Below, one piece after another: positions 7,995 to 32,294 of a DNA stretch of 63,824 nt. Position 1 is the stretch's first letter, and each line of letters starts with the position of its first letter. A program made the position numbers and the translations under genes. The stretch spans positions 1 through 63,824 of IMG/VR virus record IMGVR_UViG_3300036818_000131; one strand, 5' to 3'. Origin of the DNA: a virus. Below the pieces are notes generated by a model. It had not been told where the DNA came from and made no database searches. It saw only the letters and a list, made by a program, of their open reading frames with translations.

Positions 7995-10361
7995 TCAGTG
8001 GAAGTAGAGCGCGTCGGCCATGAACATCCATTGCGGCCAGTACGCCAGCTGGCCGTTGAAGGTCATCAAATTGCCGTCGAGGTAGGCATTGGAAAACTGC
8101 GTGAAGTAGCGACCGGCGCAGGTTTGATAGCCCATGCTACCGACCGGAAACCCCTCCTCCACGAAGCCGGCGTCTAACAGGATGCTCGGCGCGACGCCCG
8201 GGAGCACGGCATCCAAGCCGGTGTAGTCGTAGCCAGAAACCGGGTCAGGGAACGTCTTCATCGGGTCCATGACCGAGAATTGCAGCACCATGCCGTCGGC
8301 ATGCCCGGTGTAGAAGTGCGGCGCACCCACCGGCCCGCCGGGGTCACTGTTCCAAATCGCAAACATTACCGTCTGGACACAATCCCACGGGGTCATGATG
8401 CCAGTGGCGCTGAACCCCTCAACGGCGTAAACCACGATCGTGCCGAGGATCGGTATGCCGCCAAGATCCGCCGTGACGATCTCATTGGTCAGCGGGGTCG
8501 GCGCCGGTGCCCACCACAATTCAGTCTTCAATATGCAATTGGTTCCCCGGTCGACCCATTCCGGTTGCATGATCTGGACGGCGCGGCGCTGAAAGCCGCC
8601 CAAGCTCGGGCTGCTGACGTTTATGACCGCCACATCGGGAACATCACTCGGGTCTCCGAGATCGTAATTCTCATAAGCGACAAACGCGACAATGACGGCC
8701 GGACCGCTCGTTGTCACACCGGCTGGGGTAGGAGGTAAAGAAAAGGACGGGGGAGAAAGGGGACTTGCCCAGGGGTACCACAGCGGCGGGTCAGCGTCTG
8801 GCTCGCCGAGGCCCCAGTTGCCACGACCGCCCCAATTGCCGTAAACCATCTGCAACGCGGGCGCCGGCAACGGCGGTCCTGGCGGGCTCGGGCCCGGGTT
8901 GACCGGGGACGCCGGAGAGGGCGACGCCGCTGTCCCGGTCACGACTTCCTCGGCCTCGACGGTCAGATCGCCATTGTCATTCTCTTCGATCGACAAGACC
9001 CGCACCGCCTCTTGCACGAGGTAGGCGTCGCCGGCGCTGCCGGTCAGCAGCACCAGGTCCATCGGCTCGAGCAAGGCCTTGTCCCAGCCGATCTGAAACT
9101 TGTAGAGGTTGCGGACGAATTGCGCGCGCTGCAGATAGAGCTGGGCCGCGACCTGCGCCGAGCCGGCATTGGCAAAGCACTTGCCCGGCAGGCTGTCGCC
9201 AATGCGCAAGCCATACTGATCGATGGCACCCTGGTCATAGACTGCGAGGATCGTCGAATTGTAGTAATTGGCGCGGTCGAAATACTCGATCGAGAACCAA
9301 TTGAACGCGTCGGCCGGGTTGCTGCGCGCGAGGATGATCGGGTCGTCTTGCCCGAGTTCCGGGTCGGCGCCGTCCTGATGCGGATGCCAGGGCAGGAAAT
9401 CGGCGTCGGTCAACGCGTAGACCGGCACCAGATTGGGCGTCCAGCTCGCGTCGTTGTTGCTCAGCGCGACATCGCCGTAGGGGATGAATTTGAGCAATTC
9501 GCCGGAGCACACGATCGCGGTGTTGAGCAATCGGCACAAGCCCTCGAGCCATTGCGCCGCCTTCTGCTGGCCGTCCAATGACACCGAGACGAGCAGGCCC
9601 GAGGCTTGGCAATAATCGCCAAATGTGTTGAGAGTGCCGTTGCTCCCGTCGAGAAAATCGAGATTATCCGACGGGAGGCCGGCGCCGTAGCGCTGGTTTG
9701 TCAGAAAATCGGCGATGACATTGCCGGGGTTGGCGTCGGCCGGAAAACTCGGCCCGCCCGTGTTGTAGAGCAGCCCGCTGATCTCAAACGCCAGGTTGGG
9801 GATCGCCGGCGATTTGCCGAGATCCACCGGCGTGCCGGTGATATAGCAGGTGCCGGAATAATTGACCCCGGTGCCGAGCCCGCCAAAGGTCGGGTCGGCC
9901 GCTTGCCCGTCACTGCCGATATAGAAGTTGAGCTGATTGCCGGTGCTGCCCTTGCCGGCGCTGGCGCGCGACGAGCCGAACGCCTCGACCGCGCCATCGG
10001 CAAAGATCAGGTTGTTCGAATTGAATGTCACCGGGCCTTGGCACATGCCGAACGCGACATCGACCGAAAAGTCGCCGCCGCCGCCCTTCTTGCCGCTGCC
10101 CTTGCCCTTGCCGCCGCCGCCCTTGCCCTGCACGGTGTTGGTGCCGCCGAGCGGCAGTGGCCCGCTCCCCTTGCCCTTGCTGCTGCCGTTCGGGCCCCGG
10201 TAATTGCCGAGTGCGATCAGATTGATCTGCTGCTTTACCGTGCCGTAGATCAGCGGCACGACCGAGCCGACTTGGCTGGTGTTGTATTTGAGCGCATTGA
10301 GCGCCTGGTTCTGCCACGCATTGTTCTGCAGAAACGGCGTCGTCGTGCGAAACAGGCTCAT
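7995..10361 (-). CDS. Tail tip (host-specificity-like) protein, N-terminal part
   Basis: A 788-residue protein. The N-terminus (YNTSQVGSVVPLIYGT, then INLIALGNYRG) matches the start of baseplate/tip proteins of GTA-like siphophages. A low-complexity GKGKGSGKKGGGG loop follows at about residue 80-95. The core, to about residue 480, includes NLYKFQIGWDKALLEPMD and SIEENDNGDLTVEAEEV. After a Pro-rich linker (about 485-505) comes an approximately 280-residue Trp/Tyr-rich region of unknown type that is not normally part of the family. The usual C-terminal tip segment is encoded by the next gene. It follows NlpC/P60 as in GTAs. Confidence 0.8.
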   Translation of the reverse strand: MSLFRTTTPFLQNNAWQNQALNALKYNTSQVGSVVPLIYGTVKQQINLIALGNYRGPNGSSKGKGSGPLPLGGTNTVQGKGGGGKGKGSGKKGGGGDFSVDVAFGMCQGPVTFNSNNLIFADGAVEAFGSSRASAGKGSTGNQLNFYIGSDGQAADPTFGGLGTGVNYSGTCYITGTPVDLGKSPAIPNLAFEISGLLYNTGGPSFPADANPGNVIADFLTNQRYGAGLPSDNLDFLDGSNGTLNTFGDYCQASGLLVSVSLDGQQKAAQWLEGLCRLLNTAIVCSGELLKFIPYGDVALSNNDASWTPNLVPVYALTDADFLPWHPHQDGADPELGQDDPIILARSNPADAFNWFSIEYFDRANYYNSTILAVYDQGAIDQYGLRIGDSLPGKCFANAGSAQVAAQLYLQRAQFVRNLYKFQIGWDKALLEPMDLVLLTGSAGDAYLVQEAVRVLSIEENDNGDLTVEAEEVVTGTAASPSPASPVNPGPSPPGPPLPAPALQMVYGNWGGRGNWGLGEPDADPPLWYPWASPLSPPSFSLPPTPAGVTTSGPAVIVAFVAYENYDLGDPSDVPDVAVINVSSPSLGGFQRRAVQIMQPEWVDRGTNCILKTELWWAPAPTPLTNEIVTADLGGIPILGTIVVYAVEGFSATGIMTPWDCVQTVMFAIWNSDPGGPVGAPHFYTGHADGMVLQFSVMDPMKTFPDPVSGYDYTGLDAVLPGVAPSILLDAGFVEEGFPVGSMGYQTCAGRYFTQFSNAYLDGNLMTFNGQLAYWPQWMFMADALYFH

Positions 10362-10370
10362 ACGCGCCTC

Positions 10371-10829
10371 TCAGAACGCTGAGATGAAGACGAGCGGTCG
10401 GTGCTGCGCCAGCCGGCCGTGCTCGGCATTGCCCCAGCACACGCAGCGGCGCTCGGCGTAAGCGTGGATCAGCCGCGGCCAGTCGACGACGATCGCGCCA
10501 TGCCAAAAGACCCGGCCGTATTTGAACAACACGACGTCACCGGGCTCGGGCTGCTCGACGATCCGGCCGTGTTGCAGCAGCCCTTTGAGGTAGGTTTCCT
10601 CGCCGCGGTGCTGGAATTGATCGGGGCGGTAGAACGGGATCTTGACCTCGCCGACGAGGCCCACCGCGCGGTAGACGCCATAGATCAGACCGAGGCAATC
10701 GACCCCGGCACCCTTGAGGCAGGCCATGTGGTGAAAGGGCGTCGTGAGCCAGGTCTGCGCCTCATCGATGACGGCTTGGCGCAGACGGGTTATCGTGGAC
10801 GGGTCGCGATCCTCGGAGAGCACCGACAT
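10371..10829 (-). CDS. NlpC/P60 tail-associated peptidase
   Basis: A 152-residue cysteine peptidase of the NlpC/P60 fold. The catalytic Cys45 sits in GVDCLGLI, His110 in FWHGAIVV and a third polar residue, His122, in LIHAY. The length and order (DUF2163, then NlpC/P60, then tip protein) match gp14 of gene transfer agents, where the enzyme trims peptidoglycan during tail penetration. One gene (11326-12411) and two plus-strand genes intervene between it and DUF2163 here. Its ATG (10829-10827) shares the CATG tetramer with the start of the opposite-strand gene at 10828. Confidence 0.9.
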   Translation of the reverse strand: MSVLSEDRDPSTITRLRQAVIDEAQTWLTTPFHHMACLKGAGVDCLGLIYGVYRAVGLVGEVKIPFYRPDQFQHRGEETYLKGLLQHGRIVEQPEPGDVVLFKYGRVFWHGAIVVDWPRLIHAYAERRCVCWGNAEHGRLAQHRPLVFISAF

Positions 10830-11043
10830 GGCAGACCCCTTCCGACGTCACGAGAACGATGCCAGCCGCACGCAGAGCCTTGCGCAGGCCGTGGCGAAGG
10901 CGGCGGAGCAGCAGCGGTTATTCGACCGCGACCCGCGCGTCGCGGCCTTCCCGGGCGGGATGGCCTTGCCGGGCGGGATTTGGGCGAAGCCCGCGGCACC
11001 GCGGCCGCAGGGTTATTTCAGCCGCCAGCGGAGGAAGGCGTGA
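10828..11043 (+). CDS. Small Arg/Ala-rich protein, 71 aa
   Basis: The start ATG at 10828 is preceded by GGAGAGCACCGAC, a plausible ribosome-binding site. The protein begins MADPFRRHENDASRTQ, has an amphipathic Ala/Gln helix and ends in a Gly/Pro-rich tail with PGGMALPGGIWAKP. No domain was recognised. Its stop overlaps the GTG start of the next plus-strand gene (GTGA), so the two are co-translated. The promoter would have to lie inside the antisense NlpC/P60 gene. None is convincing by eye. Confidence 0.6.
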   Translation: MADPFRRHENDASRTQSLAQAVAKAAEQQRLFDRDPRVAAFPGGMALPGGIWAKPAAPRPQGYFSRQRRKA

Positions 11044-11228
11044 GCCGCCCGATACCGGTGCGGCCGCGCATGGCACCGCTCGCGGTGACCCTGCTGCGCG
11101 CCGATGGTCTGCATACAAGGCAGATCGCCCGCCGCCTCAAGCGCCCGCGGCGCTGGGTCAGCCGGGTGATCCGCGACGACGAGATCTACCTTTTCGGCCG
11201 GCCCGCCTACATCGCGCGCCAGCGTTGA
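11040..11228 (+). CDS. Small helix-turn-helix protein, 62 aa
   Basis: A 62-residue protein starting at GTG 11040, coupled to the upstream gene through a GTGA overlap. Residues 14-38 (LRADGLHTRQIARRLKRP followed by RRWVSRVI) read as a helix-turn-helix: a helix, the turn around LHTRQIARRL, and a recognition helix with basic residues. There is no room for other domains. It could be a DNA-binding regulator or a transposase-like HTH remnant. It is one of two candidate regulators in the window, but nothing ties it to a specific operator. Confidence 0.65.
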   Translation: MSRPIPVRPRMAPLAVTLLRADGLHTRQIARRLKRPRRWVSRVIRDDEIYLFGRPAYIARQR

Positions 11229-11325
11229 GCCAGCCCGCTTACGAGCCAGCCCCCCTCACGAGCCGGAGGCCGACACACCGACACATCCGCAGAAAATCGC
11301 GAGGCTGCCCAGCAGGTGAGCCGAC

Positions 11326-12411
11326 TCACGAAAACGTGCCGGTGCCGATCGACTGCAATACCGCGGCCGAGGTCGTCGTCAGGGTCAGGTAGAAATCGCG
11401 CCAGGTGTTCTGTGCGATCGTCATCGTGCCATTCAACGTCCAGCCGGTGTTGGTCGTGATCGTCCAGACGTGACTGGCGGATGACTGGTTGATGATGCGC
11501 AGTTTGTAGGTTTGCCCGGCGACCGCATTGGGGATCGCGGCGACGAGGTTGGCGACGGTCGGCAATTGCGCGTTGGCATCGCCCCCCATCGTGCCGGTCA
11601 TCGCCAAGGCAACCTCGAGCTGGCCCGCGCTGATATTGGCCCCGGTCAAGGTCGTGCCCGAGGTCGCGGTATTGGTGTTGTAAGCGAGGTCGGCTGTGAA
11701 CGACGGCAGGTTCATGATCTGCAACGTGCCGGCAACCGGACAATAGACCTCGCCGATAAAGCCGGCCGGCAACGTGACGCCGGTGCCGCTGGCAAAGCCG
11801 TTGACGGTCTCCGAGCCATTGCCAAAGAACTGGATCGGGTTGGCGGTGTTGTTGGCGATAAAGCGTTTCTGCCCGGCGGCCGCGGCGGCGCTGGGCTTGA
11901 CCGAATCGTAAGGTGCCGTCGCGGCGGTCGCGGTCGTGATGTTGCTGAACTCGGTGCTCAGCTGCGTCGCGCTCCCCTGGCCGCCGCCGCTGAACGCGGT
12001 GACCCCGGTCGCGGCCGAGCGGGTGATCAATCCGCTCAATGTCAGGCCGGCGATGGTCGCCGAATTGGCGGTGGCGATCAAGGCGCCGATCGAGATCTGC
12101 AGCCACACCGCCGCACTCGTCGCGGCGTTGACGCACACCCAGGCGCGACCCGGCGAGGCGGCGGTGTTGATCCACAGCGAGCCCGGCCCGTAATCCTGCG
12201 TGTTGTCATTGCCGACCGCCGGGTCGCTCGCCGCGGTAAAATTGTTGCGGCCGGTCGCGACCGGCGAAAATCCCATCGCCTGCAACGCGATCGCATCGAC
12301 CTGCGAGGTGACCGAAACAAACAGATTGGCGTCGACGGTATAGGTCGTCCCGGACAGCGGTTTGACCGTCGCACCAGCCAAAACGCCTGGCGGAGCCAGC
12401 ATTGCAACCAT
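11326..12411 (-). CDS. Thr/Ala-rich virion surface protein, 361 aa
   Basis: The start is ATG 12411 with GAGG upstream; a TTG at 12417 would add two residues. The first 45 residues (GATVKPLSGTTYTVDAN through VDAIALQAMGF) form a small module that recurs in phage surface proteins. The rest is low-charge, Thr/Ala/Asn-rich beta sequence with NNTANPIQFFGNGSETVNGF and a closing TIAQNTWRDFYLTLTTT. The gene separates DUF2163 from NlpC/P60, which are adjacent in GTAs, so it looks inserted. It is probably a tail fibre or decoration protein. Confidence 0.75.
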   Translation of the reverse strand: MVAMLAPPGVLAGATVKPLSGTTYTVDANLFVSVTSQVDAIALQAMGFSPVATGRNNFTAASDPAVGNDNTQDYGPGSLWINTAASPGRAWVCVNAATSAAVWLQISIGALIATANSATIAGLTLSGLITRSAATGVTAFSGGGQGSATQLSTEFSNITTATAATAPYDSVKPSAAAAAGQKRFIANNTANPIQFFGNGSETVNGFASGTGVTLPAGFIGEVYCPVAGTLQIMNLPSFTADLAYNTNTATSGTTLTGANISAGQLEVALAMTGTMGGDANAQLPTVANLVAAIPNAVAGQTYKLRIINQSSASHVWTITTNTGWTLNGTMTIAQNTWRDFYLTLTTTSAAVLQSIGTGTFS

Positions 12412-12436
12412 TGACAAGCCTCAATTGAATGGGAGG

Positions 12437-13381
12437 TTAGACCGCTGCCTCGGGTGGCGGGATGTCGGGAAATCCGCCAAACCGCAGCTGGTTCTGAAAG
12501 GTCCCCGAGCACGTCGTCAGGGTATGGTCGCAGCCCGGCAATAACTGAAACGTGTCGGTGCCGGCCGCGACCGGGAAGATCCACGGCTTCAGGTAAAACA
12601 CCCCGCTCGGCGCAATGCTGCTGTCGAGCTGGCCGATGGTCCGCGTATAGCCGGCATTCTGGCCGCTGAGGCCGATGATCGAGCCATTGTCGTAAGCCGT
12701 CGAGGGGCTCGGCACAAAATCCGTAAAGATGACGCTCTGCGTCGAGGTGACATCGCAGGTGATGGTTTGCGCACCAATGCCGGTCGCCGCCCCCACCGCG
12801 TTCGTGCCGTTGACCCGGTCATAGCCGCACATGCCGGTGCCGGGCTCGCCAAAGATGTGCGTGCAGGCCGCCTGAAAGAGCCGCCGCGGCATCTGCGCGG
12901 TCAACAGATCGGTGAGGCTGTTGACGTGGATCACCGTCTTGGTGCGGCCGATCTCGACATCGCCGACGCGGCCAAAAAACCGGCTGATCGTGCCGACGAC
13001 GTTGCCCGACGACAGATAGGCGCGCCACACGCGGCACCAGCCACCGTCGAAGAGGCCGGCTTGCAGTGCCGCTTGCCAGGTCAGGGTGCCGCCGAGACCC
13101 AATTGGTCATTGGCGCCGGCATAGAGCGTGACCTCGATGTGGCCGACCTCGACGCCGATCTTCTCGACGATCTTGGTGCGTTCGATCGGCGGTCCGAGCG
13201 CGAAGGTGAACAGCGGGTCGTCGGTATCGGGTGCCGGCGCGACCAGCGCGGTCTGAAAGCTCGAATAGCGCAGGATCTCGCCGCCCTGCAATGTGAAGGT
13301 GTAGAGGTCGGCCATTTGCACATTGACGTCCGGCCCCCAGCTCGCCAGCAGGGCTTGCAAGGCGGCTGTGGCGGGCCGCAT
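12437..13381 (-). CDS. Tail assembly/tip protein, DUF2163 with BR0599-type C-terminus
   Basis: The start is ATG 13381, overlapping the previous TAA (TAATG). The longer ORF to 13423 lies inside the upstream gene. The protein is 314 residues. The N-terminal DUF2163 part begins MRPATAALQALLAS and includes DLYTFTLQGGEILRYSSF. The C-terminal cap has ACTHIFGEPGTGMCGYD and the hallmark end GCDHTLTTC then NQLRFGGFPDIP. This matches GTA gp13, part of the distal tail complex (hub). Its partner DUF2460 is directly upstream. Confidence 0.9.
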   Translation of the reverse strand: MRPATAALQALLASWGPDVNVQMADLYTFTLQGGEILRYSSFQTALVAPAPDTDDPLFTFALGPPIERTKIVEKIGVEVGHIEVTLYAGANDQLGLGGTLTWQAALQAGLFDGGWCRVWRAYLSSGNVVGTISRFFGRVGDVEIGRTKTVIHVNSLTDLLTAQMPRRLFQAACTHIFGEPGTGMCGYDRVNGTNAVGAATGIGAQTITCDVTSTQSVIFTDFVPSPSTAYDNGSIIGLSGQNAGYTRTIGQLDSSIAPSGVFYLKPWIFPVAAGTDTFQLLPGCDHTLTTCSGTFQNQLRFGGFPDIPPPEAAV

Positions 13382-13992
13382 TACAGCACGACCGAGGTCA
13401 GCTTTACTTGCTTGATCTCCCAATAATCATGAGCGAATTCCTCGAAATCGAGCGCGTCCGGGAAGTACACGCGAAAGTAATACGTGAAGTCGGCGGTGAC
13501 AACGACCCCGGGCCCCGGCGGCGTCGCAAACGTCACGAGGCCGGTGGTGTCGTCGACGCTCCAGCCGGCCACAGGCGAGTCGTTGAGATAGACATTGCCG
13601 ACGACATTGGGGGCGATCATCGCCTCGCCGCGGCCGCCCGGCACCAGCGCACGCAGCAATTGGAATTGCGTATTGGTGTTGTCGCCGGTGCCGAGAACCG
13701 AGCCGGTTGCCGTATTGTCGCTGGGATCGTTCAAGAGGAACGCATCGAACGCGCCCTGCGACGTGTTGAAGAAATCCATCATCGTGCGCAATTCGGTGGG
13801 GCTCGTGTAGGAGCACCACGGGCTGTCGTGCAGCACCGCGTAGATCAGCTTGAAATTCCAGATCGGGTTGGCGTAGTCGCTGGTCCGCAACGTGCGGCCG
13901 GAGACCGCGCGCTGCATGCGGGTCGCCCAACCGGGCGTCTTGGTCACGGTGTAGCTGAGACCCGGGAAGACCGGATATATTCTTTGACTCAT
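13381..13992 (-). CDS. Tail tip protein, DUF2460 family
   Basis: A 203-residue protein of the DUF2460 family (GTA gp12, distal tail protein). Landmarks are FPGLSYTVTKTPGWATR, then RTLRTSDYANPIWNFKLIY, a DFFNTSQGAFDAFL block and a C-terminal TFATPPGPGVVVTADFTYYFRVYF. It sits between the tape measure and the DUF2163 gene, the standard order in siphoviruses with GTA-like tips, where it joins the tube to the hub. Confidence 0.92.
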   Translation of the reverse strand: MSQRIYPVFPGLSYTVTKTPGWATRMQRAVSGRTLRTSDYANPIWNFKLIYAVLHDSPWCSYTSPTELRTMMDFFNTSQGAFDAFLLNDPSDNTATGSVLGTGDNTNTQFQLLRALVPGGRGEAMIAPNVVGNVYLNDSPVAGWSVDDTTGLVTFATPPGPGVVVTADFTYYFRVYFPDALDFEEFAHDYWEIKQVKLTSVVL

Positions 13993-14005: not shown

Positions 14006-17000
14006 TTACCCGCCCGGTGTGAAGCGGCTGTTGTTGCGGTGCGCCCGGAAGAAACTCTTCGCGATGGTGTCGGAATGCGCCATCAGGAAAGCAGCACCGC
14101 TGCGGCTGTCGATCGCCGACAGGTGGACGTGGGTGTCGCCATAATTGACCGACGGCCCGGCGGGCGACCCGCCACCAGAAGCGCCGCGCAACCCCTCGGC
14201 AAAGCTGCTCGGGATCACCTGTTCGCCGTGGTGCAGCAGGCCGACCATGTCGCGGTCGACCTCCCAGGCGCCCTGCGCGAAGTGCGGTATTTGCCGGCCG
14301 CCCATCATCGTCATGCCGAGGATGCGGCCGAGCCCGCCATCCGGCGGCGGCGGTGCCGCACTGGCGATCAAATTCTGCAGGCCGCGCGAGATTGGCGCCG
14401 GCAAGACCATTTCATTGGGGTGCGCGACGATGAGGCGGCCGCCCTTGCCATCGGCAACGGCACCGCCGCCACCGACCATCATGCCGCCAACCACCATGCC
14501 ACCGGCGGCCGACGGGATGACGCCGCCCTTCTCGAGGGCGAAGAGCCCGCCGAGGATTTTCGGCACAAAGCCGAGGACTCCACCGATGATCCCGCCGCCG
14601 CCACCGCCTTGGCCGCCGCTGAAGAGGCTGCCGAGCAGGCCGGAAAAGCCGGTGAGCCCGCTGCTGGCAGTCGTCGTGCTGCCGGTCAACCCTTGCAATG
14701 CGGGAGCGGCCTGGTTGGCCGCCGTGGTCAGGCCTTGCACTCCGGTACCGGCGCCGCCGCCACCTGAGCCGCCGCCGCCGAACAGGCCGCCCAGCCAGCC
14801 GAACAGCCCGCCGCCGCCCTGGCCGCCCTGACCGCCGCCGCCCTGACCGCCCTGACCGCCGCCGCCGAACAGGCCCCCGAGGAGCCCGCCCGAGCCCATC
14901 AGCTTCTGCAGCGCCATGAGCAGCGCCAGGATCTGCGTCAGACCCGCCAGATTGCTCTGCGGGTTGGCCGGCACGAGGGTCGGCGTGACAAAGCCGAGCG
15001 AGGAAACCGTCTGCTGCTCCGGCAGCCCGACGACGGTGCCGCCCGCGGCCGACATCACCCCTGGCGGCACGATGGCGCCGCCTTCCGACGACATCGCGCC
15101 GAGCACTTGGCTCGTCTCGGCGGCCGGCAAGATCATCTCGCCGGGGTGGACAACGGCGATCTGGCCGCCTTTGCCATCGGCCACCGGGGCACCGCCGAGC
15201 GCGCTGGTCAGCCGCCCCTTGGCGAAGGGTGCGACATCGCCCTTGGCGGCGAGCGCCCGCACGCCGCTCTTGATGGCTTGCGGCAGTGCCGTCTCGTGGA
15301 CCTGCAATCCACCCGCGGCCGACGGGATGACGCCCCCGCCGGCGAATTCGTGGACATCGGCAACATCGGGAAAGCCGGTGCCGATATCGGCCATGCCGAC
15401 AGTGCCAAAGTCTTGCGCCACGAGCTCGCCACCGAGCTCGGCGGCGTCGGCCTCGCCGAGATCCTGCGCCGCGAGTTGACCGCCGAGATCGGCGGCATCG
15501 GCGGTCGACAAATCGCCCGCGCTGCCGCCCGGCAGCCCCGAGATCTGCGCCGAGGTCGGTCCGGTGAGTTTTGCCGACCCGGCGGCGAGCGGCGTTGTCT
15601 TCTGCGACGTCGCACCGCTGGCCTGGCCCTTCTGCCCGCCCTTGCCCATCAGCATCATCAAGAGCGCGAGCAGCGCCGCCCAAATCTCCCAGCCTTTGCC
15701 GAGGCCCGGGATCGGCGGCAATGTCGGCGATGCGGATCCCTGCGTCGCGACCGGCGCGATCTCGCCGGGAACCACGATGGCGCCGCCGGCGGCCGAGGGG
15801 ATGACGGCCCCCTCGAGCATCGAGTCCGAGGACCAATCGCCGTCGGCACTGGTGTCGCCGGCGCTGGAAGACCAGTTCGGCGCCCGCCGCGGGTCGTCGG
15901 GATCGGTCGGGTCAGGCGCACCGGTGAGCCCGCGATACTGCTCGCCGATCGGCTGGCCAAAGACTCGAGCGACGATCTGCGCGATCGGGTGGAACGGATC
16001 GGTAAACCCGGCCGCCGGCGAGTCGCTGGCGCTCGCCACCTGATCGGCCGGGATGATGAACTCGCCCTGGTGGACCAGCGCGAGCCCGGTTTGCTCGACC
16101 GGGCCGCCATCATCAAAGCTCGGCACGTCGCTCGACCAGTCGCTGCCCGCTTCAAACGGCGTCAGCGGTGTTCCGAGCGGGTTGTCGGCATTGATGACGA
16201 GCGGGTTGCCGGTGTTGCCGGTATCGCCGAACCCAGTCCAGCCCTGGGCGCGGTTCATCGCCGCCAAATTCGCCGTGATCGTCGGCACGCCCGGGATCGG
16301 GCTGGTGATTTGCGCCACGGCATTGGCCGCGTCGAGCGTGCCCTTGATGAAATTCTGCGGGCCTTCCGGTGACGTAAAGCCGGCAGCAAGCAACTTGTCG
16401 CTGAGGCCGCCACCAGATGTGCCGGTTGGCGTTGCCGCGACACTGGCCAGTTGCGTTGCTGCGGCATTGGCCGGCGGCGTCGCACTCGGTGTCGCCGGTG
16501 CCCCCTGTTCCCTGCCAGGGGCAGGGTTGCCAGGGGCAAGCGTGGCGGGCGCCGCTTGCGGCTGATCGGTCTGGTGTTGCAGCAGCGCCTGCGTGTTCTG
16601 GTCGGTCGCCGCGGTGTTTTTGTCGGTCGCCTGCGCGCTCGGGTCTTGGCCCTTGTCGCCGCCACCAAAGAGGCCGCCGAGACCGCCCTTGCCGCTGAAC
16701 AGCGCGAGCATCGCGGCACCGGCCGCGGCCCAAATCTCCCAGCCCTTGCCGAGGCCGTTCTGCTGCGGCTGCAATGTCGCAATCGCCGGCTGCTGCTGTG
16801 TGATCGTCGAGGCCGGCAGCACGATTTCGCCGGCATGGACGACGGCCGCACCCGACTGCGTGACGGTGCCGCCGGCTGCCAGATGCGGCAACTTCGACGG
16901 CAGCGTGTCGGGGAGGTCATCGAGATCGAGGACGACGTGCGCCGGGAAGGATTTGGCGCCGAGCATCTGCAGCGCGTCGTAGCGATGGCCGCCTTCGAGG

Positions 17001-20000
17001 ATGTAGGGGCCACCGGAGTCGACCGCGACAATGAGCGGGTCGAGCTCGGCCGATTGATTGATGTCAGCGGCTAATTTGGTGGTGCGCTCAGTGATCTCCG
17101 GCTTGCCCGAGAAATAACTGAGCGGGACCTCGCGGACGCCCGACAAAACCTCATAGTTGCCGAAGGACGCGCCAATCGAGTCTTGATTGGGCGTATGCGC
17201 GCGCACAGTGCGACCGTCGACACTCTCGCCCGCCAATGGATAGAGCTGGTGGAGTGTCTCGTCGGTGGTGTCGAGCGCGACATGCCCCGATGGTGCTGGC
17301 GGCGTCATTCCAGCGCCCGGCGCGGCGCCCTTCGACGTTATGTAGCCATCGCGGTCAATGTCGTAGGTATTGCGGAAGAACGATGCCCCCTCGTCCGTCA
17401 TCATTGAGAGGCGGATTTTTTTGTCGGGGAACTCGCGGAAGAGATCGTTGACGAGCGCGGTGGCGGAGCCTTGCCGCCGTGCGTCCTCACGCGTGTGGAT
17501 GTTCTGAATTTGGACGTCGTCGCCGTAGATCGACAGATCAGCAGCGGCGCGGATTTGTCCATTTTCCGAAATGGATTTCGTGCCGAACAGTTCGCCGTGA
17601 TAGGCATCGTGGACGCTGGTATCTGCGATTTTCCGTGCAGCTTGATCGAGCGCCTCGGCGGCTTTGGCTTCCTTGCCGGCACCCATGCCGAGCACCATGC
17701 CGGCCGAGGCGAGACCACTGAGCCCGGTACCGATTGCGGCGGTGGTGTCGCCGCGCTGCAATGCCGGGACAACCCCGGCCAATGAGCGCATCGCGCTCCC
17801 GGTGTCGCTGACACCGGCCACGCGCATTGCGGCATCGACCGCCGAACTCGCCACCGTGGCCGGGCCGCCGCCGAGCTTCAGCGGGTCTGAGCGATCAGGA
17901 GCAGCATTGACGACATCGGCCGGGACGACGTATTCGCCCTCGTGCAGCAATGCCAGCCCAGTCTCGTCGACCGGGCCGCCATCATCGAAGCTCGGCACGT
18001 CGCTCGGCAATTGCTGCGTCGCTGCGGGGGTGACATTGGCGGGTGTCGTCGTCAGCGGCGATTGCGGGTTGATCTTCGCCTGCTCGGCCAGGATCTTCTG
18101 CGACGCCGCCTCGTCGAAGACCGGGTTTTCGCCCTGCGTCATCGCCTGCGAGCGATTGGTCGGGTTGGCCTCCCAATTGGCATAAGCGTCGCGCAGGCTT
18201 TGATTGTGCAGCAAATCCTGCGTGCGAACGATCTGGCCGCTGCTCAGGTGCCCGATATCATCGCCCTGTGAGGTCGGCTCGAACCCGCGGCCGTAATTGG
18301 TCCATTGCTGGCCGAGTTCGTTCACGCGGGTCTCAAGGGCGGGGCCGAACTGCTCAGGGGATGACAGATAGCCGGTGGTCGGCGGGCCCTCATGCGTAAC
18401 TTGGCTAAGGTCGCGACCAGTGTACGGCTGCGAAAAGAGATCGGGTCTCGAGGCCATGTAGGCCTCGGCCTCCGACGAGCTCATCGTCGGCCGGCCGCTC
18501 ATGTCTTGCAGGTAGGAGACGGTCTGCTCGCCGGTCATGAAGAACTGCTGGGGCCCGGCTGCGGTGTCCTCCGTGATGATCGGCGAGCCGCCCGCTAACT
18601 GGGCATAGCGCCCGCCGGTGGTGATGTCGCCGCGGGCATAGGCTGCCTGCGCTATTCCCAGATAGTCACCACCAGTACCGGTGCCGGTTCCAGCGCCGCT
18701 GCCGGTGTCTATGGTCTGGTCGCCCGGTCCAGAAGCTGTCCCAGGGACGGTAGCTTGCGTCGCGGTCGGGCTCTGCAAATCATGGAGGGCTTGCGTGTTG
18801 TCCTTTGTCGCCTGCGTGTTGTCGGCGGTGTCGCCGGTCAGCTTCTGGTCGGCCGTAACCGATTGGGCGATCTGCGAGGTCTGTGCGTTGGACTGGGTGG
18901 CGCTGTGGTCCGTCGCGTGCGCCGCGGCCGTGCCGTTGCCCGTTGCGGTAGCCGTTGTCAGTGCCGGGGCGAGCGCCGGCGGGGCGAGCTCGAGGTTGAA
19001 TTTGTCGAGTGTCGCGGTGGTCTGGCCGAGGGTGTCGATCAGATCGGCATTGGCCGATCGGATCGCCGACTGAAAGCTCTGCGTCGAGCTGCCGATCACC
19101 TCGGCATTAGCTGTCGCCAGCGCATTGCCGAATGACGGCGCGCTGCTGTCGACACCTTGCGACACCGCTTCGGTGATCTGGGTATTCAGAGCCGAGCCGC
19201 CGCCATCGAACCCAACCTGGGGATCGAACCCGAGTTGGGGCAGTGGTGCGTTGGGAGCCGGCGCAGAGCGGCCGAGCTGCCCCGTGCCGCGATCGGTGGT
19301 TGCCAGCGCGGTGCCGGTTTCACCAGCCGCAGCCCGACCGGCCCCGGCGCTGAGCGCGCCGCTCGGCACGTTGATCAGCAGATGCTCGGCGACAAAGCTG
19401 GCCATATCGTCGGCCGGCACCGGCACGCCGGTATTGCCGGCGTCTTGGATATGCCGGACCTGCCCGGCGTAATTATTCGCGGTGCCGACAAACGCATCGC
19501 CCAGATTGGTGAGCTGCTGTTGGACGTGTGCGATCGGCTGGTCGAAGAAATCCTGAAAGTCCTGGCCGATGCCTTCGACGAACCCGGGCTTGGCGCTAAC
19601 GCCGGCCGTGGCGGCATCGGCCGGGATGATCGTCTCGCCGGCATGCACGAACGCCAGCCCGGTGCTCTCGACGGTGCCGCCTTGCTCAAAGGCCGGGACG
19701 CTATCGGGGGCGCCGCCGGCGAGCGGCAGGCACATTTGCTCGGTCGCGGGTGTCGGGGCGGCGGGCTCCACGGGAGCCGCAGAGGGGGGAGCTGCGGCTG
19801 TGACGGGTAACCCGCCGCCCGACGGTGTGGCCGGCGCCGAAAGAGTGGTGCCGGCGACCTGTGCGACGTTGACTAGCTGTGGGCCGGTCTGTTGTGCGAC
19901 GTTGACTGGCTGTGGGCCGGTCTGTGCGGCATAGACCTGATTGGCGTAATCCGCACGCCGTGGCGCGTCGGCTAGTGATTTCGGCCGCTCGAGGTTTTTC

Positions 20001-23000
20001 TCGAACCGCTTCGCCAGTTCGCCGGCCGCATCGCCGGCCTTTTTGAAGGTTGGATCGAGCTTCGAGAGCTGCTGATCCATGAACTCCATCTGGACTTGCC
20101 AGTCGGTCGGTGACCGGCCACTCGACGCCGCATAGGCCTCCATCGCCTGCCGGTTGCCGACCTGCGGATTTTCCTGGAACAGCCCGAGTTCGCCGGCTTT
20201 GCCGACGGCATCGGTGCGCAGATGGGACTCGGCCGCGGCATTGCCAATGACCGCGGCTGCAGCGCTCGGCGAATAGCCGTGCGCCAGCAGCCACTGGTAC
20301 ATCTGCGATTGCATCGCGGCGGAGCCCGGCACTGGGCCTTCGCCGGCGGTGGATTCCGCCGCCGTCTTGCTCGGGCTCTGGCCGCCCGCGATCGTTGGCG
20401 TGCCGCCAGCACCGCCCGGCGCGCCCGCACCGCTCAGCGCGCGCAATGCGTCGGTATTGGCCTTGGTCGCATCGGTATTGGCGCCGGTCGCCAGCCGCAG
20501 CTGGTCCTCGGGCTTCAGCTTGTCGCTGTCGCCAAACCCCAGCATATCGCCGAGGCCACCAAACAGCTCGCCAATGCCCGATTGGTCGAACAGCTTTTGC
20601 AAGGTCTTTTCGAGCAGCTTCTTTTCCTGCTGCTCGAAGAATTTCGCGATCGCCTGACCCCAACTCTCCTTGTGCTCCATGACGCCGGTGATTGCGTCGG
20701 TGAGCGAGCTCGCCAATTCCTTGTCGATGTCTTTGGCGCGTTTGACGCGCTCTTCCTCTGCCTTTTCCCAGATCTCGCGCTGTTTGTCGGCGTCGCGCTG
20801 TGCCACTTCCGCCGAGCGATCGGCGATCTGGTTTTCGAGCTCTTCGTTCCCTTTGGCCTTGGCGGCTTCTTGCGCCAGGATCTGCTGCACCGCTGCCGCA
20901 TGGCTGGCGACGATGCGGTCTTCGAGGGCGGCCGCGGTCGACGCGGTGAGCTCGCCCATCGAGCGGCGGCGCTCGACCGAGTGCAGATCGGCCTGCTCCT
21001 GCTGATCGATGATGCGGCGCTGGTTCTCCAGCTGTTTGATCGCGCGCCGGGCTTCTTGGTCGGCGTAATTTTGCTGCTGGGTCTCGAGACGCTTTCTGCC
21101 CTCGCTGCGCTCGCCCTCGTCCTTGTTGTTCTGGATCTGCTGTGCCTCGGGGCCGAGCCGCACGCCGGCGTCCTCGCGGGCCTTCTTCTCCTTGGCAATG
21201 GTTTCATCGATCAGCGCGATGCGCGCGCGCAAGAGCCGCTCGATTTCCGCCTCGTTGTGGCGGGCCGCGGTGATCTCTTCGTCGAGCGCCTTCAGCCGTG
21301 CCGATTTGTCGGACTCGATGAGCCGGATGACCTCATTGAGGTGGCTGCGTTCGGCTGCGGCAACCCGCTCCTTCTGCGCCAGGACCTCGCCTTCGCCGAC
21401 CAGCTCCTGTTGCTGCGCCTGCTGCAGCAATTCGAGGATATGGCGCTCGGTCGCGAGCCGCTCGGTGGAGCCGCTTTCGGTCTCGTCGGCGCGGGCCCGT
21501 TCGGTCGCGATGGTGCTCTGCAGACGTTCTTTGGCGGCTCTGCGTTCCGCGTCGGTGACGGCATTGATCTGCTGTTTGACGGCCGGGGTCTGATCGGCCA
21601 GCTGACCCGCTTCTTCGGGGGTTTTGCCCTGCTCCGTCAGGCGTTGGATTTCGAGGTTGCGGACCGCATCGCGCTTCTTCTTCTCGATCTCGACAACCAG
21701 GTCGGCATTCTTCTGATGCTGGCGCGCCTCCTCATCGAGATCGCGCAGGGTTGTCTGCAGCGCCTCGTCCGCGGCCTGCTTTTTGACCTCGGCAAGGTGC
21801 TTGTCGGCAGCCTCGACGGCGGTGGCATTGACGAGCGGGTGCGCTTCGGCCGCGGCGGCACGGATCGCCGCGTTGACCTGCTCCTCGATCGCGACGCGCT
21901 GTTGGCCCGATTTCCCGGCTTGCGCCTCGGCCTCGCGCATCTGGTCGATCCAGGTCTTGAACTCCTGTTCGCGCTGCGTGCGGACCGCGGACTGGTATTG
22001 GTTTTCCGCGGCGATCGCTGTCGGGGTCTGCCGCGCCAGCGGCGCCGCTTCCTCGCGGGCCCGCGGCAATGCTTCGGCGACCGGGATGCTTTCACGTTCA
22101 GAAATCGCCAGCGCATGGACCTTGGCGATGGCCTCGGCCTCGTAACGCACGACCTCGTCGGCGATCTGCCGGCGGATGGCGATCACCGCCTGGGCGTTGT
22201 TGCGCTGCGCTTCGAGCTCGCCCTGCAATTTCGCCATGCGCGCGGCGTGCTGCTCGGTCTCGGCAGCACCATGAGTGTTCGCGGCTTCGATCTCGAGGCG
22301 TTGCTGCGCGGTCTTGACGTTTTCGAGTTGTGTCTGCAATTGCTGAGCGGCGGCATTGTTGCCCGCCATCAGCGCGCCTTCGATCTGCCCCTCTAGCGCG
22401 AGTTGGGTGTTTTTCAGTTGATTGAGTTGCAGGCCGAGGGTGTTGCGCTTCTGCTCTTCTTTGGTGAGGTCGGAGGCGGTGTCCAACCCCGCCGAGACCT
22501 CGGGCAGTTGTGCTGGTGTCGGACGCTTCTCTTCCCCGATATGCTCTTTCGGCAGCTCCTTTGGGTAGACTTCAGTGAGGCCGCTCAGGCCTCCCATCGC
22601 GCCCTCGCCCATCGCCGCGGCGAGCGAATAATATTCGCGCAGCGCGTTGGTCTTCTTTTGACGGGCCTCGGCCTGGCCGCCCGCACCGCCCTCGATCGCT
22701 CGCGTTACCGCGTCATAGGCCTCGGGGATCCGGTGTGTTTCCTCGAGAGACTTGACATAATCACGAAGCAACTGACCGTTTTCGGCCAATGCTCCGTTGG
22801 TGTCCAAGATCTTCTCAGCCCATTTCTCGTAAGCCTCGGGACCGCCGCTGACGGCCTGGACAACCTTTTTGGCTTCCTCCGCCGCAGTGGTGTGTCCGAG
22901 TTGGGCCAACGCCTCGGAGAGCCTGGCGAAGCCCTCCTGCGATGCCAATGCGTTGGAAGGCAGATTGCGAAATTCGTCACTGATCGCGCGGATTTGCGCA

Positions 23001-23761
23001 CCGGTCTCGTGGTATTCGCTCGACAGCATCCGGGTGAATGACGCCGCCTGTGTTTTTGCTTGTTCGTAGCCGACACCGCCCTGCACCAGCCGATCGGTCG
23101 CATCGCGCAGTGCCAGCACGCCTTCGATGGCCTGGTAGGCGGCATAGCCGATCGCCGCCAATGCGCCGACACCGGCAACCGCGGCAACGCCCCACACGCC
23201 GGAAAGGCTGCTGACGATCGTGTGCAGTGAGCCCATGCGCTCGAGCAGCACGACGATCGAGCCGGGGATGCGGTTGAAATTCCCGGTCATCGCCTCGTGG
23301 CCGAGGACGAGGAATTCGCGCGTCGTGCCGGCGGTGGCGAATTGCAGTCTGCCGTGCGCCTCGGTGAGGCCTTCGGCATTTTCATTCGCGGCTTGGAACG
23401 CCTCGCTCGCGCGATTGATGCCGGCGACCGACTCGTCGAATGAACCGAGCCCGGATTGGACGCGCGAGAGCGAGGCAACGAACTCTTGCTCGGCCTGCGA
23501 GAGGACCCGCGTCGACTGTGCCGCCTGCGCGGCACTCTGCGCCAATTTGACATTGGCGGCGGACGCCGCCTGTGCGGCGTCGGCCTCCTTGGCGAGGAGT
23601 TCGAGCGCCTTTTCGAAATTGCCATTGGTCTGCGCGAGCGCCGCAGCCATTTGTTTTTGGCTGACTTCGAGCTGCTGTGTCGCCGCCCCCACCTGGTTGA
23701 CGCCGGCGACAAAGCCCGAGGTCTCAGCGGTGATTTTGACGTTGATCGAGCCGTCGGGCAT
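14006..23761 (-). CDS. Giant tape measure protein with lysozyme-, GNAT- and ParB-like segments
   Basis: 3251 residues, the longest gene here. Residues 1 to about 1100 are mostly coiled coil, with a hydrophobic stretch near 195-220 (WGVAAVAGVGALAAIGYAAY). At about 1145-1260 there is a phage tail lysozyme-like domain (YQWLLAHGYSPSAAAAVIGN, then AESH and GLFQENPQ). At about 2050-2145 a segment with RRQGSATALVNDLF matches GNAT motif A. At about 2190-2290 LDPLIVAVDSGG and ILEGGHRYDALQML resemble ParB/sulfiredoxin-like domains. From residue 1360 to the end a motif of the form GG-x-V-x-TGLALVHxGExxxPA recurs about nine times. The last 350 residues are Gly-rich. It sets tail length and probably enters the cell with DNA. 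Tail chaperones lie directly upstream. Confidence 0.9.
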   Translation of the reverse strand: MPDGSINVKITAETSGFVAGVNQVGAATQQLEVSQKQMAAALAQTNGNFEKALELLAKEADAAQAASAANVKLAQSAAQAAQSTRVLSQAEQEFVASLSRVQSGLGSFDESVAGINRASEAFQAANENAEGLTEAHGRLQFATAGTTREFLVLGHEAMTGNFNRIPGSIVVLLERMGSLHTIVSSLSGVWGVAAVAGVGALAAIGYAAYQAIEGVLALRDATDRLVQGGVGYEQAKTQAASFTRMLSSEYHETGAQIRAISDEFRNLPSNALASQEGFARLSEALAQLGHTTAAEEAKKVVQAVSGGPEAYEKWAEKILDTNGALAENGQLLRDYVKSLEETHRIPEAYDAVTRAIEGGAGGQAEARQKKTNALREYYSLAAAMGEGAMGGLSGLTEVYPKELPKEHIGEEKRPTPAQLPEVSAGLDTASDLTKEEQKRNTLGLQLNQLKNTQLALEGQIEGALMAGNNAAAQQLQTQLENVKTAQQRLEIEAANTHGAAETEQHAARMAKLQGELEAQRNNAQAVIAIRRQIADEVVRYEAEAIAKVHALAISERESIPVAEALPRAREEAAPLARQTPTAIAAENQYQSAVRTQREQEFKTWIDQMREAEAQAGKSGQQRVAIEEQVNAAIRAAAAEAHPLVNATAVEAADKHLAEVKKQAADEALQTTLRDLDEEARQHQKNADLVVEIEKKKRDAVRNLEIQRLTEQGKTPEEAGQLADQTPAVKQQINAVTDAERRAAKERLQSTIATERARADETESGSTERLATERHILELLQQAQQQELVGEGEVLAQKERVAAAERSHLNEVIRLIESDKSARLKALDEEITAARHNEAEIERLLRARIALIDETIAKEKKAREDAGVRLGPEAQQIQNNKDEGERSEGRKRLETQQQNYADQEARRAIKQLENQRRIIDQQEQADLHSVERRRSMGELTASTAAALEDRIVASHAAAVQQILAQEAAKAKGNEELENQIADRSAEVAQRDADKQREIWEKAEEERVKRAKDIDKELASSLTDAITGVMEHKESWGQAIAKFFEQQEKKLLEKTLQKLFDQSGIGELFGGLGDMLGFGDSDKLKPEDQLRLATGANTDATKANTDALRALSGAGAPGGAGGTPTIAGGQSPSKTAAESTAGEGPVPGSAAMQSQMYQWLLAHGYSPSAAAAVIGNAAAESHLRTDAVGKAGELGLFQENPQVGNRQAMEAYAASSGRSPTDWQVQMEFMDQQLSKLDPTFKKAGDAAGELAKRFEKNLERPKSLADAPRRADYANQVYAAQTGPQPVNVAQQTGPQLVNVAQVAGTTLSAPATPSGGGLPVTAAAPPSAAPVEPAAPTPATEQMCLPLAGGAPDSVPAFEQGGTVESTGLAFVHAGETIIPADAATAGVSAKPGFVEGIGQDFQDFFDQPIAHVQQQLTNLGDAFVGTANNYAGQVRHIQDAGNTGVPVPADDMASFVAEHLLINVPSGALSAGAGRAAAGETGTALATTDRGTGQLGRSAPAPNAPLPQLGFDPQVGFDGGGSALNTQITEAVSQGVDSSAPSFGNALATANAEVIGSSTQSFQSAIRSANADLIDTLGQTTATLDKFNLELAPPALAPALTTATATGNGTAAAHATDHSATQSNAQTSQIAQSVTADQKLTGDTADNTQATKDNTQALHDLQSPTATQATVPGTASGPGDQTIDTGSGAGTGTGTGGDYLGIAQAAYARGDITTGGRYAQLAGGSPIITEDTAAGPQQFFMTGEQTVSYLQDMSGRPTMSSSEAEAYMASRPDLFSQPYTGRDLSQVTHEGPPTTGYLSSPEQFGPALETRVNELGQQWTNYGRGFEPTSQGDDIGHLSSGQIVRTQDLLHNQSLRDAYANWEANPTNRSQAMTQGENPVFDEAASQKILAEQAKINPQSPLTTTPANVTPAATQQLPSDVPSFDDGGPVDETGLALLHEGEYVVPADVVNAAPDRSDPLKLGGGPATVASSAVDAAMRVAGVSDTGSAMRSLAGVVPALQRGDTTAAIGTGLSGLASAGMVLGMGAGKEAKAAEALDQAARKIADTSVHDAYHGELFGTKSISENGQIRAAADLSIYGDDVQIQNIHTREDARRQGSATALVNDLFREFPDKKIRLSMMTDEGASFFRNTYDIDRDGYITSKGAAPGAGMTPPAPSGHVALDTTDETLHQLYPLAGESVDGRTVRAHTPNQDSIGASFGNYEVLSGVREVPLSYFSGKPEITERTTKLAADINQSAELDPLIVAVDSGGPYILEGGHRYDALQMLGAKSFPAHVVLDLDDLPDTLPSKLPHLAAGGTVTQSGAAVVHAGEIVLPASTITQQQPAIATLQPQQNGLGKGWEIWAAAGAAMLALFSGKGGLGGLFGGGDKGQDPSAQATDKNTAATDQNTQALLQHQTDQPQAAPATLAPGNPAPGREQGAPATPSATPPANAAATQLASVAATPTGTSGGGLSDKLLAAGFTSPEGPQNFIKGTLDAANAVAQITSPIPGVPTITANLAAMNRAQGWTGFGDTGNTGNPLVINADNPLGTPLTPFEAGSDWSSDVPSFDDGGPVEQTGLALVHQGEFIIPADQVASASDSPAAGFTDPFHPIAQIVARVFGQPIGEQYRGLTGAPDPTDPDDPRRAPNWSSSAGDTSADGDWSSDSMLEGAVIPSAAGGAIVVPGEIAPVATQGSASPTLPPIPGLGKGWEIWAALLALLMMLMGKGGQKGQASGATSQKTTPLAAGSAKLTGPTSAQISGLPGGSAGDLSTADAADLGGQLAAQDLGEADAAELGGELVAQDFGTVGMADIGTGFPDVADVHEFAGGGVIPSAAGGLQVHETALPQAIKSGVRALAAKGDVAPFAKGRLTSALGGAPVADGKGGQIAVVHPGEMILPAAETSQVLGAMSSEGGAIVPPGVMSAAGGTVVGLPEQQTVSSLGFVTPTLVPANPQSNLAGLTQILALLMALQKLMGSGGLLGGLFGGGGQGGQGGGGQGGQGGGGLFGWLGGLFGGGGSGGGGAGTGVQGLTTAANQAAPALQGLTGSTTTASSGLTGFSGLLGSLFSGGQGGGGGGIIGGVLGFVPKILGGLFALEKGGVIPSAAGGMVVGGMMVGGGGAVADGKGGRLIVAHPNEMVLPAPISRGLQNLIASAAPPPPDGGLGRILGMTMMGGRQIPHFAQGAWEVDRDMVGLLHHGEQVIPSSFAEGLRGASGGGSPAGPSVNYGDTHVHLSAIDSRSGAAFLMAHSDTIAKSFFRAHRNNSRFTPGG
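16500..16522. repeat. Palindromic element copy in tape measure
   Basis: A 23-bp copy (GCCCCCTG, TTCCCTG, CCAGGGGC) inside the tape measure gene, encoding NPAPGREQGAPAT. It is followed by a near-repeat of the arm at 16527-16537. Confidence 0.85.
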
Positions 23762-27864: not shown

Positions 27865-29373
27865 CTAAGCGGCGACGAGCGGCCGCGTCTCAGTGACAGT
27901 GGTTTCCGACTCGATCTCGGCTTCGCAAATGATTGACTTGACCTGGTCGATGACCCCCGGCCAATCGCCCGGGGTCTCCTGGGTCACCAGGCGCATCGAG
28001 GGGTACCACGGCGTGTCGTCGCGGCCAGTGAGCCAGCGCCAGCAGCGCCAGTTCGACAGCAATGCAATGGTCGGCCGCCCGAGGGCACCGGCGAGGTGCA
28101 ACACCGAGGTGTCGACCGAGACGACGAGATCGACCTGCATCAATGCCGCGGCGGTGTCGGCAAAATCGCCGAGGATCCCCGAGAGGTCGCCAATCAGCGA
28201 GCGCATGCCGTGGTTGGCGATGTCCGCGACCCGCTCGCCCTTTTGCAGTGACACAAAGGAGAGCTGCGGCAGATCGACCAATTGCAGCATGTGGTGGAAC
28301 GGCATCGAGCGCCGCATGTCGGGCACATAGCCCGAGGATCCGGCCCAGCACAGGCCGACCGTCAACAGGCACCCGGCGGGCTTGTGGATCGGGATCCCCA
28401 AACCATTATCCGGCGCGCGCAGATAGGGGGCTCCCGCCATTGACGCGCCAGGTGGCCCAAAGGGAATCGTCTCGAGGGTCAATCCGAGAAAGGCCGGCAC
28501 CGACAGCATCGGCGAGTGATAATCGGCGGGCGGCGGCGGCCCGTTGACTTCGGCGACCTCATCGGCGAGGCCGGAAATCGCGATCAGCCGCAACAAGGGC
28601 TGCGGCACCGCGGCGATGACATGCGCGCCGCGCTCTTTGAGCCACGGCAGAAAGCGGCAGAACTGGATCGTGTCGCCAAAGCCCTGCTCGTGGTGCACGA
28701 TGATGGTTCGGCCCGCGAGATCCTGGCCTTCCCAGCGCGGGATGCCGCTATCCCAGATCGGGTTTTTCTGCAGTTCGTCCCAGCGCGCTTCGTGCGCCAC
28801 AAGGCCTTCGCCGAATTGCCCCGAACCCAACAGCGCGATGCCGAGATCGCGGCGGATGCGGGCCTCCTGCGGGGCCAGTTCCAGTGCCGTGCGAAAGCAT
28901 TGCACCGCCTGCTCCGGCCGGCTCGCGGCCATCCGCGCCAGGCCCAAATTGTGCCACAGCCCGGCGAGCCCGAATTGATTGACCTCTTCGCCGGCGGCGC
29001 GGCGCTCGCTGGCGATGCGGATCGCCTGCATATGGCAACGTGCGGCCTCGTCATAGCGGTCGGCGCGGAACAGCGCATTGCCGAGATTGCCGAGATAGGC
29101 CGGGTTTTGCGGTTCGAGATTGACCGCGCGCTGCGCCAATGCCAATGACGCGGCGAACTGGCGGCGGTCCTGGACAATGCAGGCGAGGCTCGTCAGTGCG
29201 GCGTGATGGTTGGGGTCGAGGCGCAATGCCGAAACCAGGCAATGCTCGGCACCGCCGATATTGCCGCGCTGGTAATATTCCTTACTCGACAGAAAGAAAC
29301 GCTGCGCCGTCGGGACGAACTTGCCGTCCCCAGGGGCCATTGGGGACGGGGCAATCAGCGGTGCTTCGATCAT
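27865..29373 (-). CDS. TPR protein with GT9-like glycosyltransferase domain (copy A)
   Basis: 502 residues from ATG 29373, which overlaps the previous stop (TGATG). Residues about 30-230 hold TPR-like helix pairs (PAYLGNLGNALFRADRYDEA, GLWHNLGLARMAASRPEQAV). Residues 240-480 look like a family 9/heptosyltransferase-type fold: RTIIVHHEQGFGDTIQFCRF, VGLCWAGSSG, then DLVVSVDTSVLHLAGALGRP near the end, where the sugar-nucleotide site usually lies. Similar TPR-GT proteins occur in rhizobia. A second copy is at 54414-55889. In the virion operon it may glycosylate a structural protein. The acceptor and donor are unknown. Confidence 0.8.
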   Translation of the reverse strand: MIEAPLIAPSPMAPGDGKFVPTAQRFFLSSKEYYQRGNIGGAEHCLVSALRLDPNHHAALTSLACIVQDRRQFAASLALAQRAVNLEPQNPAYLGNLGNALFRADRYDEAARCHMQAIRIASERRAAGEEVNQFGLAGLWHNLGLARMAASRPEQAVQCFRTALELAPQEARIRRDLGIALLGSGQFGEGLVAHEARWDELQKNPIWDSGIPRWEGQDLAGRTIIVHHEQGFGDTIQFCRFLPWLKERGAHVIAAVPQPLLRLIAISGLADEVAEVNGPPPPADYHSPMLSVPAFLGLTLETIPFGPPGASMAGAPYLRAPDNGLGIPIHKPAGCLLTVGLCWAGSSGYVPDMRRSMPFHHMLQLVDLPQLSFVSLQKGERVADIANHGMRSLIGDLSGILGDFADTAAALMQVDLVVSVDTSVLHLAGALGRPTIALLSNWRCWRWLTGRDDTPWYPSMRLVTQETPGDWPGVIDQVKSIICEAEIESETTVTETRPLVAA

Positions 29374-29681: not shown

Positions 29682-29912
29682 GGCAAGTCCTTCTGTTGGG
29701 GGGAGTGCGGGCAACAAGCCGACGAGGAATTTGCCGCCCGGCACATGCTCAATGGCGGCGCGGATCTGGCGGCACGGGCAACCCATGTGCTAAGATCTCC
29801 AGTGCTGCAGCCTGCGGTGGCGTGGAGCAACACGGCTAAGGCCGGCCGTCGACGCCTGGGATGGGCGCGCTACCGGCACGACCGGAACATCCCGGCCCGC
29901 AGTTGCGGCAGT

Positions 29913-31136: not shown

Positions 31137-31213
31137 TATTGCGCTCGCCTCTATCCGTTCCGAACCGCGGTGCAGGGAGAGCGCGGCTTTTGGTGGCGCC
31201 ACGGATCAAGTCT

Positions 31214-31230
31214 GTGGGCTAAAGGCCCAC
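31214..31230 (+). other. Small hairpin in divergent leader
   Basis: GTGGGC and GCCCAC (6 bp, 5-base loop TAAAG) lie 32 bases before the plus-strand ATG at 31262. There is no T-run, so it is not a terminator. A leader structure is possible. Low weight. Confidence 0.3.
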
Positions 31231-32283: not shown

Positions 32284-32294
32284 GGGATTGGCAG

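Follow-up and report, generated by a model that had tools for sequence, protein, structure and literature searches.

Effector domains on phage structural proteins

Wall hydrolases in tape measures, and effectors of the polyvalent and MuF types on head-side carriers, are already known. In polyvalent proteins a single polypeptide linked to the virion combines several enzymatic domains of disparate kinds (Iyer et al. 2017, PMC5512222). ART, GNAT, ParB and lysozyme domains occur in these proteins and their delivery with DNA has been predicted. A zincin-like metallopeptidase for processing is common in them but not obligatory, and early modification and counter-defence have been proposed as their roles (PMC5512222). 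The injected proteins described there include the defence proteins DarA and DdrB of phage P1, which have a head carrier; DdrB is a ParB-fold member. In the MuF polymorphic toxins and effectors, a phage structural protein is fused to swappable effector domains, with a head or portal-side carrier and a terminal toxin (PMC3482391, PMC5512222). On the tail side, siphovirus tape measures exit the tail, insert in the envelope and bear wall-cutting domains, and those of T5 (pb2), TM4 and phiIPLA35 consist of a ruler plus wall hydrolases only (PMC6116005). Homologues of a glycine-zipper stretch, on which translocation of a T6SS DNase effector depends, occur in the C-termini of tape measures (PMC10240207).

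The tape measure described here resembles each of these systems in part. It comes from a soil phage, IMG/VR record IMGVR_UViG_3300036818_000131 (63,824 bases, one assembly), and the whole of this record is referred to as the window. As in polyvalent proteins, disparate activities are found in one polypeptide, namely a lysozyme domain, a GNAT-like domain and a ParB-fold domain, with ART domains in orthologues. Unlike polyvalent proteins, the carrier is a tape measure, the cassettes are bounded by a repeated motif, and neither a zincin-like metallopeptidase nor another processing peptidase was found in the window protein. Like the MuF proteins, it fuses a phage structural protein to effector domains that appear swappable, but the window has an internal multi-cassette array in a tail ruler; no immunity gene was identified for it. 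It shares the ruler and the wall-cutting domain with T5 pb2, TM4 and phiIPLA35 and adds effector domains of a cytoplasmic type. The P1 proteins differ in being carried in the head and not in the tail, and the ParB-fold domain of the window has no detectable sequence relation to DdrB. The T6SS effector Tde1 has a hydrophobic Gly-rich segment, with homologues in tape measures, that is thought to move the effector across the membrane (PMC10240207). Tde1 works in a different machine and the role of the corresponding segment in the window tape measure is putative. The terms "tape measure" and "tail length" are absent from the main text of PMC5512222. A search restricted to the open-access literature gave no description of GNAT, ParB or ART cargo, or of exchangeable cassettes for it, in a tape measure, in agreement with the initial annotation, which knew of no described tape measure with this set of domains.

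The tape measure protein and its setting

The tape measure gene (14006..23761, minus strand, as are all features of the protein and the tail-tip genes below) runs without interruption through 3251 codons from an ATG at 23761 to 14006. PHROG 15478, "tail length tape measure protein", matches the ORF with an E of 1.4e-11, and the gene lies in a conserved siphovirus tail operon. The 3251-residue tape measure that had been proposed from the letters alone is confirmed. In relatives the gene is flanked by the same genes, at 58-86% identity across most of their lengths, and two conserved genes lie upstream. Downstream is a GTA-like tail-tip module (7995..13992) that is syntenic in relatives and comprises phrog_2913, phrog_778, a minor tail protein and a J-like tail protein. 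This type of tail tip presumably points to an alphaproteobacterial host. In the relative L019 (L019:10363-15140) the region of the J-like tail protein is matched twice in tandem, each copy at about 71-72% to the single copy of the window. The two copies differ in their C-terminal halves, which suggests a duplicated receptor-binding module.

The relatives that share the window's tape measure are metagenome contigs, all of them, and are given here by L numbers. No match to queries made from the ruler, or from the cargo to the C-terminus, was found in 50,697 phage records, and there were no prophage copies of the C-terminus among 84,980 species genomes.

The ruler region (aa 1-1110, 20432..23761) aligns from end to end with the tape measures of L005 and L028, at 54-59% identity. 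It is constant at about 1110 aa in these three proteins, and the cargo zone is variable. For the L005 orthologue the identity is 54% over aa 1-1110, and the middle region is unconserved except for the boundary motif described below. The ruler is followed by a Phage_lysozyme2 domain at aa 1151-1278 (19928..20311; Pfam, E 7.2e-19), where a tail-lysozyme-like region had been expected at about 1145-1260. Judged by this match it is certainly a lysozyme domain, which is an ordinary feature for a tape measure. In L005 this zone is occupied by Amidase_2, in L020 and L028 by SLT and peptidase M15. The conserved C-terminal region (aa ~2650-3251, 14009..15814) is Gly-rich and has hydrophobic segments and degenerate copies of the motif. 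It is 61% identical to L005 (aa 2653-2955) and 66-73% identical to L019-L028 over the last 180-240 aa. The cassette joints of the window rest on one assembly; from aa 2921 on, the C-terminus has the support of L018.

The GNAT-like domain

The initial annotation put a GNAT-like motif at about residue 2094 and a ParB/sulfiredoxin-like region at about residue 2255. The two motifs, RRQGSATALVNDLF and ILEGGHRYDALQML, are found at aa 2095 and aa 2254, each within one residue. The GNAT-like domain covers aa 2048-2140 (17342..17620), with the acyl-CoA motif RRQGSA at 2095-2100. The Pfam GNAT match is weak when the whole protein is scanned (E 0.027); the segment alone gives an E of 3.6e-4 and 21.2 bits against a Pfam cut-off of 20.7. 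The domain shares 46% identity with a phage protein of L002 (E 1e-26) and about 31-35% with the GNATs of L003, L004 and L029-L031, and the loop RxxGxG/A is kept in these relatives. An AlphaFold2 model of the GNAT and ParB parts was built from nine aligned sequences. It has a pLDDT of about 74-84 over the GNAT part, for which Foldseek against the PDB returned RibT, PanZ and RimI. With both the acyl-CoA loop and the predicted fold present, aa ~2048-2140 appear to be a minimal GNAT.

L003 is gp273 of Tunturiibacter phage Tunturi_5, a protein of 1489 aa. Besides the GNAT it has a NUDIX domain and three stretches of ART-PolyVal, and its gene adjoins a gene for a "minor head protein". One polyvalent GNAT family of Iyer et al. 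2017 has an ART as its neighbour within the polypeptide. ART and GNAT occur in one polypeptide both in Tunturi_5 gp273 and in the tape measures of L019 and L020; no ART domain was found in the window protein.

The ParB/sulfiredoxin-fold domain

The second domain covers aa 2174-2290 (16892..17242) and contains EGGHRYDAL. Searched alone, the segment has a weak match to ParB_N in Pfam (E 0.018) and sequence matches in the PDB to ParB, Spo0J, sulfiredoxin and SbnI (E 0.008-0.2). A profile of the ParB-fold family matches PDB ParB with an E of 0.0015. Six homologues were found in other contigs at 48-56% identity (E 1e-27 to 1e-38), and two of the six have ParB_N matches of their own. These relatives were detected only by the alignment-based search; a single-sequence scan gave none. 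In the fold model most of the ParB part has a pLDDT of 79-96, Foldseek against the PDB returned sulfiredoxin and ParB folds, and EGGHR is invariant across the ParB-fold alignment. The conserved Arg of a G-x-H-R type pocket and the predicted fold place aa ~2174-2290 in the ParB/sulfiredoxin superfamily.

The homologues include large multidomain proteins (L096, L097), a 578-aa protein (L035) and, as with the MuF effectors, proteins of the MuF kind: L036 has Phage_Mu_F and ART in the same protein, and L098 is MuF-like by inspection. The homologue in L034 (L034:4020-11750) is a polyvalent protein of 2577 aa in which the ParB-fold domain is accompanied by ART-PolyVal and a diguanylate cyclase domain (GGDEF).

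Three more specific assignments were rejected. Sulfiredoxin enzymes have a catalytic Cys in a GGCHR signature; in the window a Gly precedes HR (EGGHR) and this Cys is missing. A partition ParB that acts as a CTPase clamp does not fit a domain that has no helix-turn-helix and is directly followed by the third copy of the boundary motif, and the CTPase activity suggested earlier is not specifically supported. A DdrB-like ParB was rejected on an hhalign probability of 0.1 between the window ParB profile and P1 DdrB, and the model has no extra Tyr-bearing helix of the DdrB type between the last helix and strand. The motif DGHHR has been noted for ParB toxins (PMC3482391). EGGHR resembles it, and on this likeness we would guess at a phosphotransfer or nuclease role.

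Chance motifs can be set aside for both domains in view of their homologues and predicted folds. Neither part is only coiled coil or disorder, as both fold in the model, and the key residues (RxxGxG/A of the GNAT and GGHR of the ParB part) are kept in relatives. The likeness to polyvalent proteins that was first put forward as an idea is backed by homology to Tunturi_5 gp273, L034 and L036 and by ART-PolyVal in orthologous tape measures.

Cassettes and their boundaries

The three segments named in the initial annotation stand, but it missed the more important feature, which is an array of cassettes with swaps. The middle of the tape measure consists of cassettes bounded by a repeated motif, GGpVxxTGLAxVHxGEyVvPAd. 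Copy 1 (aa 1350-1381, 19619..19714; EQGGTVESTGLAFVHAGETIIPAD) corresponds in the DNA to a 92-nt direct repeat, D1. Copy 2 lies at aa 1922-1950 (17912..17998) and copy 4 at aa 2546-2572 (16046..16126). Copy 3 (aa 2291-2318, 16808..16891) is aligned to the copy of the motif where the L026 and L027 sequences begin to differ. In the alignment to L005 the motif is found at aa ~1930, ~2297 and ~2552. The direct repeats are 92 nt with 70-84% identity in the window and 97 nt with 75-95% identity in L020. Since the boundary motif is a direct repeat in the DNA, homologous recombination is a sufficient mechanism for cassette change.

The GNAT and ParB domains sit exactly between motif copies 2 and 3, and at this slot L005 has only low-complexity sequence. 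They are preceded by a cassette leader (aa 1963-2040, 17642..17875) that is about 51% identical to the segment before the ART in the L026 tape measure. Nearer the ruler, motif copy 1 is followed by a linker (aa 1382-1489, 19295..19618); motif and linker together are 45-49% identical to the cassette starts of L019 and L020. For the segment of about 210 aa at 1690-1900 (18062..18694) no homologue or family was found, and its single-sequence model (pLDDT 38) is uninformative.

The cargo at equivalent slots varies among relatives. The L020 tape measure (3299 aa) has SLT and an M15-like peptidase followed by motif-bounded cassettes with two ART-PolyVal stretches (PF18760 in L019 and L020) and a GNAT; one more segment resembles an ART exoenzyme by eye only. 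L019 has the same set and, ahead of it, a second GNAT cassette. In L026 there is an ART-like segment, 31-35% identical to the L020 ARTs, and its leader is about 50-51% identical to that of the window's GNAT and ParB domains. If cassettes are swappable, one leader is expected to turn up before different effectors, as it does here. Effector-free orthologues are L005 and L027, with an amidase, and L028, with SLT and M15.

Two pairs of contigs suggest recent change. L019 and L020, which come from different samples, are 99.94% identical over 12,322 bases and the match ends at L019:618 / L020:4262, the start of a boundary motif. For L026 and L027 the match (99.9% identity, 8.4 kb) also ends at a boundary motif; L005 and L027 agree with each other.

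The wider family of the motif (GG..TG.A.VH.GE..P) is widespread near the C-terminus of other, mostly short tape-measure-like ORFs of viral contigs (L045-L095). About 50 further contigs bear it, mostly with shorter tape measures and zero or one motif match, and in most of them there was no match to the cassette effectors.

A model for delivery

The architecture (domains, boundaries, leader sharing and cassette variation) is apparent from sequence comparison and predicted structures. We consider it probable that the protein is a working ruler and also a carrier of polyvalent-type effectors, whose cassettes recombine and are delivered at DNA entry. In such a model the coiled-coil region (aa 1-1110) would set the tail length and the peptidoglycan hydrolase zone after it would open the cell wall. 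Homologous recombination at the motif repeats would insert, delete and swap cassettes, leaving the ruler and the C-terminus undisturbed. During infection the tape measure would exit the tail before the DNA does, insert into the inner membrane by its hydrophobic Gly-rich C-terminus and bring the cargo to the cytoplasm at once. Ejection and membrane insertion are proposed by analogy with other siphoviruses; the lambda tape measure has been labelled beside inner-membrane ManYZ during injection (PMC13190303). Release into the cytoplasm and the activities of the two domains are steps that we infer. The GNAT may attach an acyl group to a host protein, and the ParB-fold domain may be an NTP-dependent phosphotransfer or nuclease-type enzyme directed against host defence or metabolism. 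Early protein modification and counter-defence may be the role of the cargo, as has also been proposed for phage GNATs (PMC7824862). The size of the cargo, about 1,500-2,000 aa, has to be counted against delivery, as it must fit inside the tail tube. We lean slightly towards the wider reading that a soil siphovirus lineage has a "polymorphic tape measure", a general chassis for delivering effectors, in which interchangeable leader and effector cassettes recombine at the motif and reach the host cytoplasm before or with the genome.

The GNAT and ParB-fold domains may instead be passengers of recombination that are structurally tolerated and have no host role. The cassettes do vary freely, and since some orthologues, such as L005 and L028, lack effectors, no effector is essential for tail assembly. 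Passengers would not be expected to retain their signature motifs (RxxGxA and GGHRYDA), to keep the reading frame intact through long arrays or to come repeatedly from the polyvalent set (ART, GNAT, ParB) and not from random genes; the GC3 of the cassettes also resembles that of the remainder of the gene. We regard this explanation as unlikely. It is also quite unlikely that the cargo acts before the cytoplasm and is not injected, either modifying or binding parts of the tail, envelope or periplasm or aiding tail assembly. This would agree with the wall hydrolases in the same variable middle region and with siphovirus tape measures spanning the envelope (PMC6116005). Against it, homologues of the cargo belong to MuF fusions and polyvalent proteins, for which injection from the head is predicted. 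The substrates of GNAT, ParB/Srx-fold and ART enzymes (acetyl-CoA, NTPs and NAD) are moreover cytoplasmic.

The cassettes could mainly fit the tape measure to the envelopes of different hosts, with effectors as a minor by-product of modular wall piercing. The hydrolase slot is indeed swapped too (lysozyme, amidase, SLT, M15), but the effector cassettes lie apart from this slot and are multiplied in L019 and L020, which makes such a reading highly improbable. Misassembly of metagenome reads must be considered because the contigs with extra cassettes, L019 and L026, terminate within a cassette and the boundaries are repeats; the joints of the window, too, come from one assembly. A polyvalent protein gene that was fused to a tape measure gene in this way is hardly credible, given that L026 and also L019 and L020, two contigs of different samples, independently show a like architecture, that the window leader is in frame and matches the L026 leader, and that GC3 is uniform.

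Few phage proteins reach the inner membrane as early as tape measures do, and host defences such as SNIPE sense them. Should tape measures ferry enzymes as well, phages would own an immediate-early, tail-borne route of counter-defence, a counterpart of the head-borne polyvalent and MuF effectors. Gene prediction would overlook cargo of this kind because such proteins are annotated only as "tape measure", and the repeated motif offers a search handle for more of it. The cassette slot is a natural site for testing which cargo a siphovirus tail is able to deliver, and the extent to which the tape measure enters the cell becomes testable.

Other genes of the window

Carbohydrate genes are found among the structural genes at 27865-39933 and 54414-55745 and may form a virion glycosylation island. 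They encode two TPR plus glycosyltransferase-9 proteins, a UDP-galactopyranose mutase (29913-31136), DUF4422 and DUF5672 proteins and a GT4. At 45185-47857 there is an 890-aa protein that has an N-terminal match to a head maturation protease and a long C-terminal extension.
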